This document shows positions 22,051 to 30,557 of a stretch of DNA of 61,579 nucleotides, piece after piece; positions within the stretch are counted from its first letter, which is position 1; every line of letters starts with the position of its first letter. Under the pieces are notes generated by a model. The model searched no databases and had not been told where the DNA came from. It saw only the letters and a list, made by a program, of their open reading frames with translations. Both the position numbers and the translations under genes were made by a program. Source of the DNA: Oscillospiraceae bacterium (GTDB taxonomy: Bacteria > Bacillota > Clostridia > Oscillospirales > Oscillospiraceae); NCBI GenBank assembly GCA_009785525.1, contig WQWC01000007.1, positions 1 to 61,579 on the forward strand. The letters run 5' to 3'.

Positions 22051-22097
22051 ACCCTCTTTAAGTAAAGAGGGTGGCTCCGCAGAGCCAGGTGTTTTGT
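22051..22097. repeat. Intergenic repeat (CCCTCTTTA-GTAAAGAGGG-GGCTCCGCAGAGCC family)
   Basis: Two adjacent hairpins, ACCCTCTTTAAGTAAAGAGGGT and GGCTCCGCAGAGCC, end in GTGTTTTGT. The same arrangement lies at 32945-32990, and an inverted variant at 42489-42536. The 3' half equals the coaW terminator, so it probably also ends the ger operon. Confidence 0.75.
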
Positions 22098-22209
22098 GCT
22101 TGAAGTTCGGAGCCGCCAATGGTATAATTGGGGCATTGGCGGCCGCTGGATGGCAACGCGTCCCGCCGCATCCCGGCTGCGTATTGCGCCGATTATAAGG
22201 AGAAAAATT

Positions 22210-23751
22210 ATGACACCAATAATCAGAATCTACCGCGCGGGCGAATTGATCCGTGAGACGGAAGGTGTTCCGGGTGAGACTCTGCTAAAACAGATAACCG
22301 ACGCCGGGGAGTTTTTGGATGCCCCTTGTGGTGGGAAAGGCCGGTGCGGTAAGTGCTTGGTACATATAGGTTCACCGGACGGACAAGCGGTTCTGGCCTG
22401 CCAAACCCGCGTAGATGGGGATTTGGATGTCCATCTGCCGGATAAAATGGTGATGACGATAGCCGACAGTGGGATAATTGAAAGTGGAAAATTGAAAATT
22501 GAAAATGAGCGGGGGTTGGCCCGCAGACTTGGTGTGGCTGTTGATATTGGGACTACCAGTGTTGTTGCGCATTTGACTGATCTTGAGACATGCGCCAGAA
22601 TTGCGACCGCCAGCGGCGTCAATGCACAGCGGCAGTATGGGGCGGATGTTATCAGCCGTATCCAATATTGCGCGGAGCATGGGCATGAGGCGCTGACAGC
22701 CGCCGTTCAGGATCAATTGGCGTCATTGATACAGGAAACGCTCTCCGCCGCCGGGGCGAAGAGCGATAGCGTGGAATATATATCAATTGCCGCGAATACG
22801 ATAATGCAGCACTTGGCGGCGGGGTATTCCCCAGTCGGGATGGGTACGGCGCCTTTTACCACGGTTAGTCTGTTCGGCGAAGACCTGCCCGCGTGGACGG
22901 GGCTGCCTGTCGCACCCGGTGCGAAGATTTATTACGCGCCCGCGATATCGGCATACGTCGGCGGGGATATCACCGCCGGAATGCTTGCCGCTGGACTTGA
23001 AGACACACAGGGGCCTGTTGTGTTCATTGATGTCGGCACGAACGGCGAGATTGCGTTGAAGCACGATGATACATACTACTGCTGCGCCACTGCCGCGGGG
23101 CCCGCGTTTGAAGGGGCGGAAATCACAATGGGCATGGCGGCCATCCCCGGCGCTATTGATCATGTAAAATGGGATAACGGGCTAAAAGTATCGGTAATAG
23201 GGGACGCGTCCGCACGCGGATTATGCGGCTCCGGATTGCTGGACGCGCTGGCAACTTTGCTTGAAACAGGCGCGGTTGACGAAACAGGGCGGATGCTGGA
23301 TGCCGATGAAATCGAACACGGCATCTCCGCGCATATCGCAACAGGGCATGATGGCAAGAACGTGTTCCGCCTGACCGAGAATGTTATAATGTCGGCCGCC
23401 GATGTCAGAAAATTGCAGCTGGCCAAATCCGCTATCGCCGCCGGGATTCAAGTCCTGCTGCTGCACAGCGGGGTGGCTGAGGCTGATATAGAAGCGTTCA
23501 TCCTGGCAGGCGGATTCGGCAGTTTTATGGACCAAAACAGCGCGGCGAGGATCGGGCTGTTTCCGGAAGCGTTTCTGCCACTCACCAAAACAATGGGAAA
23601 CACCGCAGGGGAAGGTGCGGCAATCGCGCTGTGTTCAGCCGCCGCCCGGCAAACACTATCGAGAATACGCGAGCGGTGCGAGTATATCGAACTATCGACA
23701 AGCCAGGCTTTTAACGACCAGTTTGTAGAGCAGATGATGTTCCCGGAATAG
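22210..23751 (+). CDS. RACo-type corrinoid activation protein ([2Fe-2S] + ASKHA/DUF4445)
   Basis: The family uses ATP and an iron-sulfur cluster to reduce inactive Co(II) corrinoid proteins to Co(I) in methyl transfer. This 513-aa protein has an N-terminal plant-type [2Fe-2S] ferredoxin domain with Cys40, Cys46, Cys49 and Cys64 (C-x5-C-x2-C-x14-C). A linker and a large ASKHA ATPase domain follow, with VAVDIGTTSVVAHL, VVFIDVGTNGEIA and AGGFGSFM. The frame is open from 22096, but ATG 22210 has AAGGAG 7 bp upstream. No corrinoid methyltransferase is adjacent, so its partner must be elsewhere. The linker carries a short AT-rich repeat insertion. Confidence 0.88.
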   Translation: MTPIIRIYRAGELIRETEGVPGETLLKQITDAGEFLDAPCGGKGRCGKCLVHIGSPDGQAVLACQTRVDGDLDVHLPDKMVMTIADSGIIESGKLKIENERGLARRLGVAVDIGTTSVVAHLTDLETCARIATASGVNAQRQYGADVISRIQYCAEHGHEALTAAVQDQLASLIQETLSAAGAKSDSVEYISIAANTIMQHLAAGYSPVGMGTAPFTTVSLFGEDLPAWTGLPVAPGAKIYYAPAISAYVGGDITAGMLAAGLEDTQGPVVFIDVGTNGEIALKHDDTYYCCATAAGPAFEGAEITMGMAAIPGAIDHVKWDNGLKVSVIGDASARGLCGSGLLDALATLLETGAVDETGRMLDADEIEHGISAHIATGHDGKNVFRLTENVIMSAADVRKLQLAKSAIAAGIQVLLLHSGVAEADIEAFILAGGFGSFMDQNSAARIGLFPEAFLPLTKTMGNTAGEGAAIALCSAAARQTLSRIRERCEYIELSTSQAFNDQFVEQMMFPE

Positions 23752-23887: not shown

Positions 23888-24598
23888 CTACTCCAACAGC
23901 ACTCGCAATTGGGCGACGGCACGCCGCTCCAGTCGAGATACCTGAACTTGCGATACTTTCAGCACGCGGGAGGCGGCTTCTTGCGTCATGCCTCTGTAAT
24001 AGCGCAGGTTTATCACCATCCGCTCTTTATCCGGCAGGGCTGACACGGCCTCACGCAGTGCCACGTGTTCTATCAGCTTTTCCTCCTGGCTCCAGTCGCC
24101 CAGAACGCTTTCGAGTGAAAACCCATGCTCCCCGGTTTCACGGTGCAATGACTCCGGCGTGGCGGCGGCAGTTTCGGCGATGGCTATGTCCTCAACCGAT
24201 ATGCCGAGCTCGGCCGAGATTTCAGACACCGTCGGCTCCCGCCCGAATTTTTGTTCTAACGTGCTTTTGGCGTTGCGGATCAGCCCCGCGCGTTCTTTCA
24301 AACTGCGGCTTACTTTTATACTGCCGTCATCCCGCAAGAACCTGCGTATCTCACCGGTGATTTTCGGCACGGCATACGTGGAAAACTGCGTGCCGAACTC
24401 GGTATCGAACCCCTGCACGGCTTTCAGGAATCCGACACATCCGAGTTGATATAAGTCATCGGGATCAACCCCGCGCCCGAAATACCGGCGGGCTATGCTC
24501 CAGATCAAACCCGCGTTGCGATCCACCATTTCAGCCAGTGCATTTTGATCCCCGGATTTAGCGGCGAGCAGCAGCGACAGCGCGGCCTCGTCCATCAT
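23888..24598 (-). CDS. sigF: Sporulation sigma factor SigF
   Basis: Forespore-specific RNA polymerase sigma factor, 236 aa. Region 2 has DPDDLYQLGCVGFLKAVQGFD and FSTYAVPKITGEIRRFLRD. Region 4 ends with the HTH TQEAASRVLKVSQVQVSRLERRA. Its place after spoIIAA and spoIIAB identifies it as SigF rather than the similar SigG. Start ATG overlaps the spoIIAB stop (ATGA). Confidence 0.95.
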   Translation of the reverse strand: MMDEAALSLLLAAKSGDQNALAEMVDRNAGLIWSIARRYFGRGVDPDDLYQLGCVGFLKAVQGFDTEFGTQFSTYAVPKITGEIRRFLRDDGSIKVSRSLKERAGLIRNAKSTLEQKFGREPTVSEISAELGISVEDIAIAETAAATPESLHRETGEHGFSLESVLGDWSQEEKLIEHVALREAVSALPDKERMVINLRYYRGMTQEAASRVLKVSQVQVSRLERRAVAQLRVLLE

Positions 24599-25035
24599 TC
24601 CCGCCCCGCGCGCGTAGAAAATCTGCGGTGCATGGTGACGGTGGTGCCCCGCCCGGGAGTGGATTTGACTTTCAGCTTATCTGTGAAGCTTTCCATTATG
24701 GTAAATCCCATACCGCTACGGTCTTCACCGCCTGTTGTGTACAGCGGTTCACGTGCTTTGTCGATATCGTCAATCCCGCGGCCCCAATCGCGGATTGTCA
24801 GATCCAGCGAGTTATTAGGGAAAAGCCGCGCTTTCAGCGTGATTTTACCGATGGTGTCGGGATAGGCATGGACGATGGCGTTAGTCACCGCCTCACTCAC
24901 AGCTGTTTTGATATCGCCCAGCTCGTCCAGCGTTGGATCCAGCTGTGCTGCGAACGCCGCCGCCGCCGACCGGGCAAATCCCTCGTTAGCCGAGTTGCTT
25001 TGAAATTCAATTTTCATACTGTTGACAGCTTTCAT
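24595..25035 (-). CDS. spoIIAB: Anti-sigma F factor SpoIIAB
   Basis: A serine kinase and anti-sigma factor that holds SigF inactive and phosphorylates SpoIIAA. The 146-aa GHKL protein shows TAVSEAVTNAIVHAYP (N box), IRDWGRGIDDI (G1) and GGEDRSGMGFTIMESF (ATP lid/G2). GGAGG lies 12 nt upstream of the first ATG; ATG at codon 7 is an alternative that matches known N-termini better. Confidence 0.95.
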   Translation of the reverse strand: MKAVNSMKIEFQSNSANEGFARSAAAAFAAQLDPTLDELGDIKTAVSEAVTNAIVHAYPDTIGKITLKARLFPNNSLDLTIRDWGRGIDDIDKAREPLYTTGGEDRSGMGFTIMESFTDKLKVKSTPGRGTTVTMHRRFSTRAGRE

Positions 25036-25042
25036 ATGTAAT

Positions 25043-25366
25043 CTACGCCTCCTTCACGCCGGCCGCGATTTTTATCAGCCTGCCCAATCCCGCCATGTCC
25101 AGCACTTTCTGCGGCTGGGCGGGGACGTTATCAACGCTGACGGTGCCCTCCAGCTCATTCATCCGCCGGAATGCCTTTAACACAACGGCAATGCCGCTGG
25201 AATCCATGAACGACAGTCCCTTAAAGTCGAGTATCAGATGTTTAGGCAGATGTGTGTCGATACCGTCCTCAATCACCCTGACGGCCGGTTTTGCCGAGTG
25301 ATGGTCAAGCTCGCCGTCAAATCGTATCGTCAAGAGCCCGTCCTTATAATACGCCCGTGTTTTCAT
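25043..25366 (-). CDS. spoIIAA: Anti-anti-sigma factor SpoIIAA
   Basis: A STAS-domain protein (107 aa) that frees SigF from SpoIIAB in the forespore when dephosphorylated by SpoIIE. The phosphorylated serine is in FMDSSGIAVVL, the conserved site. First gene of the spoIIA operon; a long hairpin lies immediately upstream of its ribosome site. Confidence 0.95.
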   Translation of the reverse strand: MKTRAYYKDGLLTIRFDGELDHHSAKPAVRVIEDGIDTHLPKHLILDFKGLSFMDSSGIAVVLKAFRRMNELEGTVSVDNVPAQPQKVLDMAGLGRLIKIAAGVKEA

Positions 25367-27298: not shown

Positions 27299-27417
27299 GG
27301 GTTGATTTGTGAGGTTTGCCAGCCTGTAGGGGCGGCCTTTGGCCGCTCGTTGATGCCTGAGAGACAAAACGCACTCGCCCCTGTAGGGTGCGCATTACAC
27401 GCACCCCTTGCATTCAT

Positions 27418-28479
27418 CTAACCCACTGCCGCCTCATTCAAAAACGACTGGAAGTCAATCAATTTCTCATTCCGGCCTTCCGCCCGGAAATCCCGGCTGT
27501 ACAGGATCGATGCCCAGTTTATCAGCGTGTCCAGAACCTCTGTCTTGATCCCGGCGGCTTGTCCCGCGCAGCTTGTCGGGACGCAGCCGGTCAGGATATC
27601 CTCAAATATATACCGCGTGTCGATATCAACCGGCGCGAGGACGGTTTTATAGGCGTGTGTGTTCTGAATCTGCTCGTACAGCGTGTCCCCGCGGGAGCCA
27701 TAGCTGTCTACCAGCCATTCCCGCGCTGTCGGCACGAAGATGCCGTAAGCCCGCGCCACAGCCACGCGCTCGGCATCCATTTTCTCCAGCATTCCCGCCA
27801 CAAGCGGTGAGATACCCTCCATGTAAAACTTGAAGTTTTCCTTTGCCTCCACCCGCGTTATGTTCATCAGAATCGGCATAGGGTGGAAAATCATCCCGAT
27901 GTTGGAAAACCCTGTGTACAAAATACTCTCTGCAAGGCTGACCATCCCGAACAAGCCGCGCAGGATTCCCAGCAAAGTTTCGCCATAGCTGGTGTCATGC
28001 GCGGCAACGCGGAGGTTGTCTTTGATCTTGTATATCTCCGGTTTGCCGAGATCCGGACAGCGGCAGGTGAACGCGAATGTATCGGTTTCCCCAAGCATGA
28101 CATCGGCTGTGCAGCCGAAATCGGTGAGAACTGCCGCAAACGCCAGTGTGCCGAATGTCCGCCCCGGGTTGAGTATGATAGCCTGCCCGTCCTCAAGATG
28201 CGGGGCCATGGTTCGTGCGACAATCGGATGATACTGCGCAGGGGAGGTCACCATGATCAGGTACGCGCCCTCAATACATTCGCCCATGTCGTAGCTGATG
28301 AGATCAATATCCACTTCGGCGTCCACTTCGCCGCTGATGGTGAAGCGGTTAGTCGTAAACATCATGGCGCGTTCCGGCTCACGGACATACAGTGCGACAC
28401 TGTATCCCAAATACGCAAAATACGCGGCCATAGACTGCCCCCCGTTGCCAGAGCTTATTACGGCGATTTTTTTCTTCAT
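27418..28479 (-). CDS. Octopine/nopaline (opine) dehydrogenase family protein
   Basis: A 353-aa NAD(P)-dependent dehydrogenase of the family that reductively joins or splits amino acids and 2-oxo acids. An N-terminal Rossmann motif is VISSGNGGQSMAAYFA. The C-terminal octopine_DH domain has FSNIGMIFHPMPILMN, with the conserved His of the catalytic dyad, and DSYGSRGDTLYEQIQ. ATG overlaps the stop of the upstream B12-binding gene (28476-28479, ATGA), so the two proteins are coupled and probably act in one pathway. The substrate is unknown; a ketopantoate-reductase-like role is less likely because of the C-terminal domain. Confidence 0.8.
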   Translation of the reverse strand: MKKKIAVISSGNGGQSMAAYFAYLGYSVALYVREPERAMMFTTNRFTISGEVDAEVDIDLISYDMGECIEGAYLIMVTSPAQYHPIVARTMAPHLEDGQAIILNPGRTFGTLAFAAVLTDFGCTADVMLGETDTFAFTCRCPDLGKPEIYKIKDNLRVAAHDTSYGETLLGILRGLFGMVSLAESILYTGFSNIGMIFHPMPILMNITRVEAKENFKFYMEGISPLVAGMLEKMDAERVAVARAYGIFVPTAREWLVDSYGSRGDTLYEQIQNTHAYKTVLAPVDIDTRYIFEDILTGCVPTSCAGQAAGIKTEVLDTLINWASILYSRDFRAEGRNEKLIDFQSFLNEAAVG

Positions 28480-30143
28480 ATCAAAACCTCCCGCATGCGT
28501 GGCTGTGCGCTCGATATCGCAGCCAATCTTTCCCGCTCGCTAATCGGGCGCTTATTCGCTGAATCCCACGCGACGCATTTGCCGTCTATGATCCGCGTTT
28601 GCAGCGTGCCTTTGAACTTGTCGTTCTTGACAATATGCGGCGCGTCCAATATCCCGCGCCTGATGCAATCGGAAATGCACGTGGGGTCGCCCAGAGGATC
28701 GGCACTCACGCCGGAATACTCGTCAACAATAAAGTCCAGCAGATACCGCGCTTCACTTACAAGCTCCGTCCAGCGTTCGATAACAGCGGGGTCGAATGTG
28801 GCTTCCGCCATCCCGTGAAGTTCGGACCGGACAACGCCGCGCACTATCTTTGCGCTTTCAATCACAACTTCCGGCGTTGCGGCGTGGATTGCCTCGCTGT
28901 ATCCCACCACATGAATAATATGCGGCTTGATATTCATTGCCAGCGATGTGGAGGCGGCCAGCTGGCCTTTGGCGACATCACTATCGCCGGAGAGGAACGG
29001 CAAGCCCGCACGGGCCTGTCTGTATACGCGGAAATTCTGATCCGCCAGTGACTCCGTCAGCTCAATCTGCGCCAAAACTTTCGCCAAATCCATCGCGAAG
29101 CTCAGGCCGTTCGGTATGTTGAACATATACTGTGATATATAGTCGCCTGCGCCGTATTTCTTAGCATTGTGCGCGCTGATATACGACATAACGACAGAGA
29201 TCACATCATGCGCGTCACGCAATCCCCAGTGGTGCGGTTCGTTGAGTTCCACCGGGATTCCGAGTTTGCCGTGGTACGCGATAAGCTCCTGCGCTTCTTT
29301 AATTGACGCTTCAATAGGGCGCGTGCCCCTGCCGTCCAGCTCGTTATACCAGCACAGCGGCACGGCGCACCACGCGTTTTGAATCGTTTCGTTCAGGACT
29401 TCGGCAAAGCGCAGGACGTCAGCCGTTCCGCTGTAACAGCGTATCAGCGGGAAGTTGCCGCATTGGGCGACTTGTTTAATCAGCCGGAACCCTTCGGCGT
29501 CATATATCGGTACGCCGCCGGCCCCGTCAAGCTCCGGTCTGCGTAGCTCCGGCCGGAAGAAGAACTCCTGTGTGTTCTGATCTATTCCAAGGGAAATCAC
29601 ATCCAAAACGCGGGATTCCGCGATTTGTGCGACACCCTCCAGCGTTTCGTCATAAAACGGCAGACCGAAATGATGACGCAGCAGTGGATACGGGCTTTTC
29701 TGATTAATCCGCCCTATCAAATCCGTGGCGTAAAGTTCTGCCCCCGCCTTGTCGGGCAGACTGCCTGTACGCAGAAATGTGATACTGTCGTCAATGTCGT
29801 CAGTACCGTCGAAAATTACATCGAAGAAATTAAGCTCCCGCACTTTTTCAGCCACCGGACCGGTTCCGCCGAACAGCCAGACCGGTTTGTGACTCAGGTT
29901 TTTGCTTTTTTCAATCAGCTCCCGCACTATTGTGACACCGTTTTCCGGTGTCAGGCGATAGCCGAGGGTTACAATTGCGGGCTTCAAGGTTTCTATACTT
30001 TCAAGCACGGCATCTACACTGACGGCCGGGCCGAGAAACAGTGTGTCGAACCCCTCATCTTCCGCAAGGTTAAGAAAATGCACCGCACCCGCCACATGCA
30101 CGCAATTGACAAGCGACGCACCTATTACCAGTCTTTTGGACAC
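28476..30143 (-). CDS. B12-binding domain fused to glutamate-mutase-E-like TIM barrel
   Basis: A 555-aa candidate adenosylcobalamin-dependent mutase. Residues 1 to about 130 form a B12-binding Rossmann fold with NCVHVAG near the start: His16 matches the cobalt-ligating His of the DxHxxG motif, but the Asp before it is Cys14. The rest resembles the glutamate mutase E subunit (methylaspartate mutase), with CWYNELDGRGTRPIEASI, NEPHHWGLRDAHDVI, GDYISQYMFN and HIIHVVGYSEAIHAATPE. In known glutamate mutase these two parts are separate proteins. The first GTG (30152) overlaps the ribosome site, so GTG 30143 with AAAGGAGT 7 bp upstream is the better start. No cobalamin riboswitch was seen upstream. 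Coupled to an opine-dehydrogenase-like gene; substrate unknown. Confidence 0.75.
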   Translation of the reverse strand: MSKRLVIGASLVNCVHVAGAVHFLNLAEDEGFDTLFLGPAVSVDAVLESIETLKPAIVTLGYRLTPENGVTIVRELIEKSKNLSHKPVWLFGGTGPVAEKVRELNFFDVIFDGTDDIDDSITFLRTGSLPDKAGAELYATDLIGRINQKSPYPLLRHHFGLPFYDETLEGVAQIAESRVLDVISLGIDQNTQEFFFRPELRRPELDGAGGVPIYDAEGFRLIKQVAQCGNFPLIRCYSGTADVLRFAEVLNETIQNAWCAVPLCWYNELDGRGTRPIEASIKEAQELIAYHGKLGIPVELNEPHHWGLRDAHDVISVVMSYISAHNAKKYGAGDYISQYMFNIPNGLSFAMDLAKVLAQIELTESLADQNFRVYRQARAGLPFLSGDSDVAKGQLAASTSLAMNIKPHIIHVVGYSEAIHAATPEVVIESAKIVRGVVRSELHGMAEATFDPAVIERWTELVSEARYLLDFIVDEYSGVSADPLGDPTCISDCIRRGILDAPHIVKNDKFKGTLQTRIIDGKCVAWDSANKRPISERERLAAISSAQPRMREVLI

Positions 30144-30557
30144 ACCAATCACTCCTTTAATAATTTTAAACTATAATTCTACTATGCAAATGTTATGAAC
30201 TTGTGAAGCTTTTATTATTTTTTGATTACATTAGGTTACATATGCACCCTCTTTGTGAAATGAGGATGGCAAAAAGCGGGAGGGGCATCCCCCTGCCCCC
30301 TTCGTGCGCGAAGGGGGCTTGAGACGAAGGACGAAGGACGAAGGACGGGGGATGACCACCCCGGCGGCTACGTCGCCGTTACCTGAACCCCATGGACGGC
30401 CAATGGCCGCCCCTACGTCCCAAACTCCCGTCCTAAGCCCCCTTTGCGCACGAAGGGGGAAAGGGGATGTCCCCGCACATCATTCAACGGATTCACAAAA
30501 GCGGGCGCACGTGTTAACCATGCACCCGCTTTCTATTGTCGATGTCCTCGGCAGATT
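30144..30557. repeat. Gap with palindromic repeats upstream of the B12-mutase gene
   Basis: An AT-rich leader (30153-30240) is followed by two CCCCCTTCGTGCGCGAAGGGGG-type palindromes (about 30296-30319 and 30437-30459), several tandem ACGAAGG units (30323-30345) and a GGACGGCCAATGGCCGCCCCTAC half repeat (about 30393-30415). An inverted AAGCGGGCGCA/TGCACCCGCTT pair at 30499-30531 may be a terminator. No gene is seen. Confidence 0.6.

Follow-up and report, generated by a model that had tools for sequence, protein, structure and literature searches.

Two overlapping genes of an Oscillospiraceae bacterium, which we take to be a gut bacterium, probably encode a two-enzyme module in which a predicted adenosylcobalamin-dependent carbon-skeleton mutase (P0001) and an opine-type dehydrogenase (P0002) act on a common amino-acid substrate; we give this reading a probability of about 0.6. 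The genes lie in a stretch of 61,579 nucleotides (contig WQWC01000007.1 of assembly GCA_009785525.1), referred to here as the window. Both are on the minus strand. The mutase gene, recognised as an open reading frame (ORF) and by homology, spans 28476-30143 and encodes 555 amino acids (aa) from a GTG start, and the dehydrogenase gene spans 27418-28479 and encodes 353 aa. The mutase stop and the dehydrogenase start overlap in an ATGA at 28476-28479 (minus strand), as a preliminary description of this DNA had stated.

Pairing of the two genes

The pairing was followed in a first set of 38 places, made up of 37 in named contigs (from Actinomycetota, Halanaerobiaceae and Oscillospiraceae) and the window's own copy, and in a second set of 60 regions, mostly the best-scoring, out of the mutase places in 398 sampled genomes of the phylum; the 94 loci overall may contain duplicates between the genome and contig sets. 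ORFs were chosen mechanically, and at first pass GC-rich shadow ORFs masked the MutL gene in L100 and the dehydrogenase gene in L106. In the first set the dehydrogenase gene was clustered with the mutase gene on the same strand in 34 of the 38 places, and in the remaining four the mutase lay at most 142 bases from a contig edge, on the side where the dehydrogenase would be expected. The second set had the dehydrogenase in 57 of the 60 regions (L106 included), and the genomes of the three regions without an adjacent copy (L059, L083 and L108, in G274, G353 and G310) encode one elsewhere. Adjacency was thus the rule, not the rarity that would speak against a coupling.

The mutase family occurs in 87 of the 398 genomes. 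A dehydrogenase at E<=1e-30 was found in 86 of these 87, against 31 of the 311 genomes without a mutase, and at E<1e-100 the counts were 83 of 87 and 9 of 311. The sole mutase genome lacking a match at E<=1e-30 (G166) is an assembly that holds just a C-terminal piece of the mutase. The tight tie to an opine-type dehydrogenase that had been suggested for this pair is therefore strongly upheld by co-occurrence.

Among 91 same-strand pairs the exact four-base overlap was seen in 24 and a spacing within 50 bases in 77. The dehydrogenase gene comes first in 67 of 86 rows and the mutase gene in 19. On a FastTree tree these 19 are united in a single group (SH-like support 99); the gene order was reversed once on the mutase tree, with adjacency retained.

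Domains and B12 motif of the mutase

By profile and fold homology, P0001 belongs to the glutamate mutase E (GlmE) superfamily and carries its cobalamin domain N-terminally in the same chain, which bears out the earlier proposal that a GlmE-type barrel and a B12-binding domain are joined in one chain. The B12-binding (Rossmann) domain covers about residues 1-130 (29754-30143, minus strand; Pfam PF02310 at residues 6-111, 6.3e-9), and the GlmE-type TIM barrel together with the C-terminal part covers about residues 136-542 (28518-29738, minus strand). The GlmE homology spans the whole barrel in both fold and profile comparison; GlmE was not among the matches in a PDB profile search up to E 10. 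The Pfam GlmE model (PF06368) barely detects the family: its cut-off was passed by 10 mutase places in the search of the 398 genomes, and the L083 mutase matched this model at 4.4e-14. The L016 copy of the mutase is 91% identical to P0001.

Residues 14-19, CVHVAG (30087-30104, minus strand), form the DxHxxG motif with Cys in place of Asp and with the His ligand kept. The Asp of the B12 motif normally partners the cobalt-binding His. We aligned 96 mutase rows, excluding places of 350 bits or less (L116 and both L117 pieces) and the window's own copy (L001). Four rows are gapped at the Asp position; of the other 92, 86 have Cys there and 6 have Asp, and His16 and Gly19 are present in all 92. The His ligand recorded in the preliminary description is thus kept across the family, and the Cys that it noted is the family norm, with the canonical Asp motif also found within the family.

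Other arrangements of related chains were also seen. In the divergent family member at L117:5466-7369 the mutase behind the dehydrogenase is divided between two overlapping frames of 395 and 244 aa, and this may be either a natural split or a broken copy. Four loci in genomes of the window's own family (L054, L055, L056 and L057) encode a single chain of 639-648 aa in which GlmE is joined to a GlmS-like C-terminal part. Short GlmE-like proteins of 434 and 405 aa (L182:6317-7618 and L184:5295-6509, both minus strand) with PF06368 from position 111 occur in genomes where a close relative of the dehydrogenase is present and a mutase of the paired family is absent; the L182 protein (PF06368 2.2e-65) adjoins an ORF with a GntR domain.

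Active-site residues

GlmE numbering was anchored by aligning the GlmE of the window's own genome with 1cb7_B, and the residue equivalences between P0001 and GlmE come from a profile alignment rather than from superposed coordinates. R66, R100 and R149, presumably the substrate arginines of GlmE, are kept in all seven GlmE rows and correspond to H158 (95/96 rows), Q192 (96/96) and Y237 (96/96) of the mutase. GlmE E171 corresponds to P262 (94/96) and Y181 to R272. The mutase probably acts on a substrate other than glutamate. Since R156 and R235, two positions ahead of H158 and Y237 respectively, are invariant in the mutase family and near the pocket, a carboxylate site may persist in another form.

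Lysines kept in at least 88 of the 96 rows occur only in the barrel (K355 and K392); none in the B12 domain (residues 1-130) is kept at that level. In pyridoxal phosphate (PLP)-dependent aminomutases the PLP lysine is carried within the B12 domain. Since no lysine is kept there in the present family, migration of an amino group, one of the two rearrangements that had been envisaged for P0001, is not favoured.

The dehydrogenase

P0002 has both a Rossmann domain and the helical domain of the octopine/nopaline-type dehydrogenases (Pfam PF02317, 2.9e-43). H199 and D294 are present in all 23 rows of the dehydrogenase alignment and align with positions 202 and 297 of N-(1-D-carboxylethyl)-L-norvaline dehydrogenase (CENDH), whose H202 and D297 we take to be the catalytic His/Asp pair. 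Judged by these residues and domains, P0002 is an opine-type dehydrogenase with a His199/Asp294 pair.

The link to MutL

MutL, also called GlmL, is the accessory ATPase (reactivase) of glutamate mutase. Among the 60 regions its gene lies in the same run as the pair in five (L086, L100, L103, L105 and L112, from G362, G334, G265, G024 and G102), and two further genomes have a MutL-dehydrogenase-mutase run (L196 and L197, from G313 and G218). Two genomes (L114 and L115) encode MutL and the mutase as one fused protein, with MutL at residues 694-1209 of that of L114 (E 4.9e-81). The L086 MutL scored 597 bits against the cut-off of 475 for the GlmL equivalog. In the window's own genome an ordinary GlmE, MutL (G000:C2:47939-49282) and a B12-binding protein are encoded together on another contig (G000:C2:46464-49697). 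An ORF beside this cluster resembles methylaspartate ammonia-lyase by eye.

Ligase genes and other neighbours

A Ddl-like ATP-grasp gene adjoins the pair in 13 of the 60 regions. Ten of these genes, from five families, form a tree group of their own apart from the canonical Ddl of the same genomes (support 94/93, slightly below the 95 mark). Since L065 and L070 group with canonical Ddl and L113, on a very long branch, falls in a third paralogue group, the number of dedicated Ddl-like genes is taken as 10. They lie in the same-strand run in L090, L094, L095, L098 and L105, and are divergent in L092, L101, L103, L107 and L111. The neighbourhood of the pair in the window's genome has no Ddl-like gene, and the one strong Ddl of that genome groups on the canonical side. 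L072 has another ATP-grasp gene and L117 a third kind.

Asparagine synthase is found in the pair's same-strand run in L069, L075, L076, L099 and L104 (the L075 protein passes both asparagine-synthase models and the L099 protein one of two), and may reflect either a functional link or chance. A 4HBT hotdog thioesterase lies near the pair in L105 and L065. Among the flanking genes, annotated with Pfam and NCBIfam, the candidates for a conserved third gene (UvrD, Lgt, FolC in L085, MurD in L107 and L112, LNT, Amidase_3, DapF and SpoIIE) were rejected as ordinary and lineage-variable. In some Actinomycetota loci (L020, L021, L025, L027-L030, L032 and L038) the pair lies between dnaE and a histidine operon. 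In L021, which was annotated, the flanking genes are dnaE and hisZ-hisG-hisB, clusters that recur around the pair in 9 to 10 loci, and we take this as position, not function.

In the window a Shine-Dalgarno-like AGGAG (30152-30156, minus strand) was read ahead of the mutase GTG start. The gene downstream of the pair on the same strand encodes IMP dehydrogenase (NF005493) and is, as far as visible, outside the mutase-dehydrogenase module. A phage or plasmid origin was rejected, as no match in such records was found at E 1e-5. By eye, similar G+C-rich stretches ('ggggcggcc...ggccgc') stand on both sides of the pair (27327-27412 and about 30395-30415) and are possibly an interspersed repeat; also by eye, three consecutive ORFs at 23888-25366 (minus strand) resemble a sporulation sigma factor, an anti-sigma factor and an anti-anti-sigma factor.

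Proposed reaction

From the homologies, residues and co-occurrence described above we infer the cofactor form, the radical chemistry, the substrate class and the direction of the reaction. P0001, whose barrel and link to MutL suggest the use of adenosylcobalamin, would bind this cofactor base-off via His16, generate the 5'-deoxyadenosyl radical above the mouth of the barrel and convert an amino-acid substrate into its branched or straight isomer by moving one of its carbon fragments. The activity of P0001 would be maintained by GlmL/MutL, which the window's genome encodes with its ordinary glutamate mutase. P0002 would use NAD(P)H to join a 2-oxo acid to the amino group of the mutase product or of its precursor, or would catalyse the reverse. 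In some families, as shown in relatives only, the module includes a dedicated Ddl-like ATP-grasp enzyme, which may ligate the product to a further amino acid.

A wider proposal is that the module is a B12 route to a non-protein amino acid, with the mutase, the opine-type dehydrogenase and, in several families, the Ddl-like ligase arranged in a PylB-PylC-PylD-like design built from unrelated enzymes, and with a new adenosylcobalamin rearrangement at the Cys-for-Asp site. We regard this as speculative and, taken as a whole, rather unlikely.

Weighing of the evidence

Genome counts also connect MutL with the mutase, since MutL (E<1e-70) is present in 66 of 87 mutase genomes against 83 of 311 without a mutase and, when GlmE-bearing genomes are set aside, in 51 of 72 against 23 of 240. 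GlmE itself is not associated with the mutase (15/87 against 71/311, p 0.30). Several observations weigh against the proposed module. Of the 51 MutL genomes, 32 also have a lysine or ornithine aminomutase, a possible client of MutL, in a control run on these 51 alone, and the counts were therefore set aside as strong proof. The Fisher tests and their P-values, moreover, ignore kinship. Because 21 of the 87 mutase genomes are without a strong MutL (E<1e-70), it is a frequent and not an obligatory partner, and neither MutL nor a Ddl-like gene was found within the flanks of the 38 first-set loci, the window's clade included. The mutase occurs in 5 of 200 genomes of its own family, the window's genome included, and is therefore dispensable there. 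The adenosylcobalamin contacts expected of the barrel are present only in part, as of the two residues that we take to be the adenosine contacts of GlmE, E330 is kept as E417 and K326 is replaced by V413. No cobalamin riboswitch was found in the window at gathering scores. There remain 19 genomes that have MutL with neither GlmE nor an aminomutase; in three of the 10 inspected, MutL, dehydrogenase and mutase stand in one run (L195-L197), and in the other seven (L188-L194) no match to GlmE, mutase or dehydrogenase was seen beside MutL among partly annotated neighbours. A 140-aa ORF in L191 that was flagged by a DxHxxG check was judged to be chance.

P0001 could be an ordinary glutamate mutase in fused, rearranged form, converting glutamate to 3-methylaspartate beside a dehydrogenase that acts on methylaspartate or glutamate. 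In favour of this are its fold, which is nearest to GlmE, and the association of GlmL with some members, and the invariant R156 and R235 leave room for a carboxylate site. This reading is nevertheless very improbable, since the arginines that every GlmE row keeps, and E171, are replaced in P0001, and since GlmE, MutL and a B12 protein are already encoded on contig C2 of its genome. We likewise attach little probability to a PLP- and adenosylcobalamin-dependent aminomutase of the lysine 5,6- or ornithine 4,5- kind, with an amino-acid dehydrogenase acting after it as it does in the corresponding degradation pathways; the near-invariant lysines lie in the barrel with none in the B12 domain, and Pfam did not report the PLP-dimer domain PF16554 for P0001.

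The B12 domain is nearest by sequence to the corrinoid proteins of methyltransferases and to methionine synthase, and a gene for a RACo-like corrinoid activator (window 22096-23751, plus strand; Fer2, Raco_middle, RACo_C_ter) lies 5 kb from the mutase gene. P0001 could on these grounds be a corrinoid methyltransferase or demethylase, its B12 domain carrying a methyl group from an N-methyl or betaine substrate via the barrel and the dehydrogenase using the product. However, the barrel is nearest to adenosylcobalamin mutases in the fold comparison, relatives have MutL operons and fusions, and the RACo-like gene is on the opposite strand with five ORFs in between, so that the probability of this role is very small. 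The two genes might instead travel together through co-regulation only and serve separate reactions. Since 9 of 311 genomes have a close relative of the dehydrogenase (E<1e-100) without the mutase, the dehydrogenase can work alone, and in three genomes the two genes stand apart. Against this, the close relative is present in 83 of the 87 mutase genomes (86 at E<=1e-30) and adjacency survived the swap in gene order, which makes separate reactions unlikely. The two-enzyme module acting on a common amino acid is the reading that we prefer.

Comparison with known systems

A novel B12-dependent family in 11 bacteria, by all signs the present one, was predicted by Zhang, Rodionov, Gelfand and Gladyshev in 2009 (BMC Genomics 10:78, PMC2667541). 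As described there, the family has an N-terminal B12-binding domain and a TIM-barrel-like prediction, an octopine/nopaline dehydrogenase (pfam02317) is always adjacent, and D-Ala-D-Ala ligase and asparagine synthase are close by in several organisms; section 8 of the paper gives no function, GlmE relationship or GlmL link for it. The two families have the N-terminal B12 domain and the adjacent pfam02317 gene in common, and were matched by this architecture and context, not by alignment. Since what looks like the same family had been predicted beside the dehydrogenase, the pairing is not a new observation, and the "new pathway" of the preliminary description holds in so far as that section assigns it no function. 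Our searches of the open-licence PMC literature, where absence is weak evidence, gave no function for the family. New here are the GlmE homology, the GlmL link, the pocket changes, the dedicated Ddl-like clade and the counts. The placement with GlmE, the ties to GlmL and the dehydrogenase, and a pocket unlike that for glutamate allow the 2009 prediction to be approached with a few defined assays.

To our knowledge, only a small number of adenosylcobalamin carbon-skeleton mutases have been described, and new reactions are rare. P0001 has the GlmE-type TIM barrel in common with glutamate mutase (GlmE/GlmS; 1cb7, 6h9e), and the two systems share the GlmL/MutL partner, which the window's genome encodes and which nine relatives have in the operon or as a fusion. 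Unlike glutamate mutase, P0001 is a single chain that begins with its B12 domain, has Cys for the motif Asp and lacks both the arginine claw (H158, Q192 and Y237 in its place) and K326. It differs from the lysine 5,6- and ornithine 4,5-aminomutases in that its B12 domain is N-terminal and has no near-invariant lysine for PLP. CENDH (1bg6) has the His/Asp pair in common with P0002, and we know of no coupling of CENDH with a B12 enzyme. In pyrrolysine synthesis PylB, PylC and PylD provide an amino-acid mutase, an ATP-grasp ligase and a dehydrogenase; PylB belongs to the radical SAM enzymes and PylD to another family than the opine-type dehydrogenases, and the ATP-grasp protein of L072 matches the PylC model weakly (53 bits, cut-off 248). 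The same order of ideas is seen in the relatives L105, L094 and L072, with no homology claimed.
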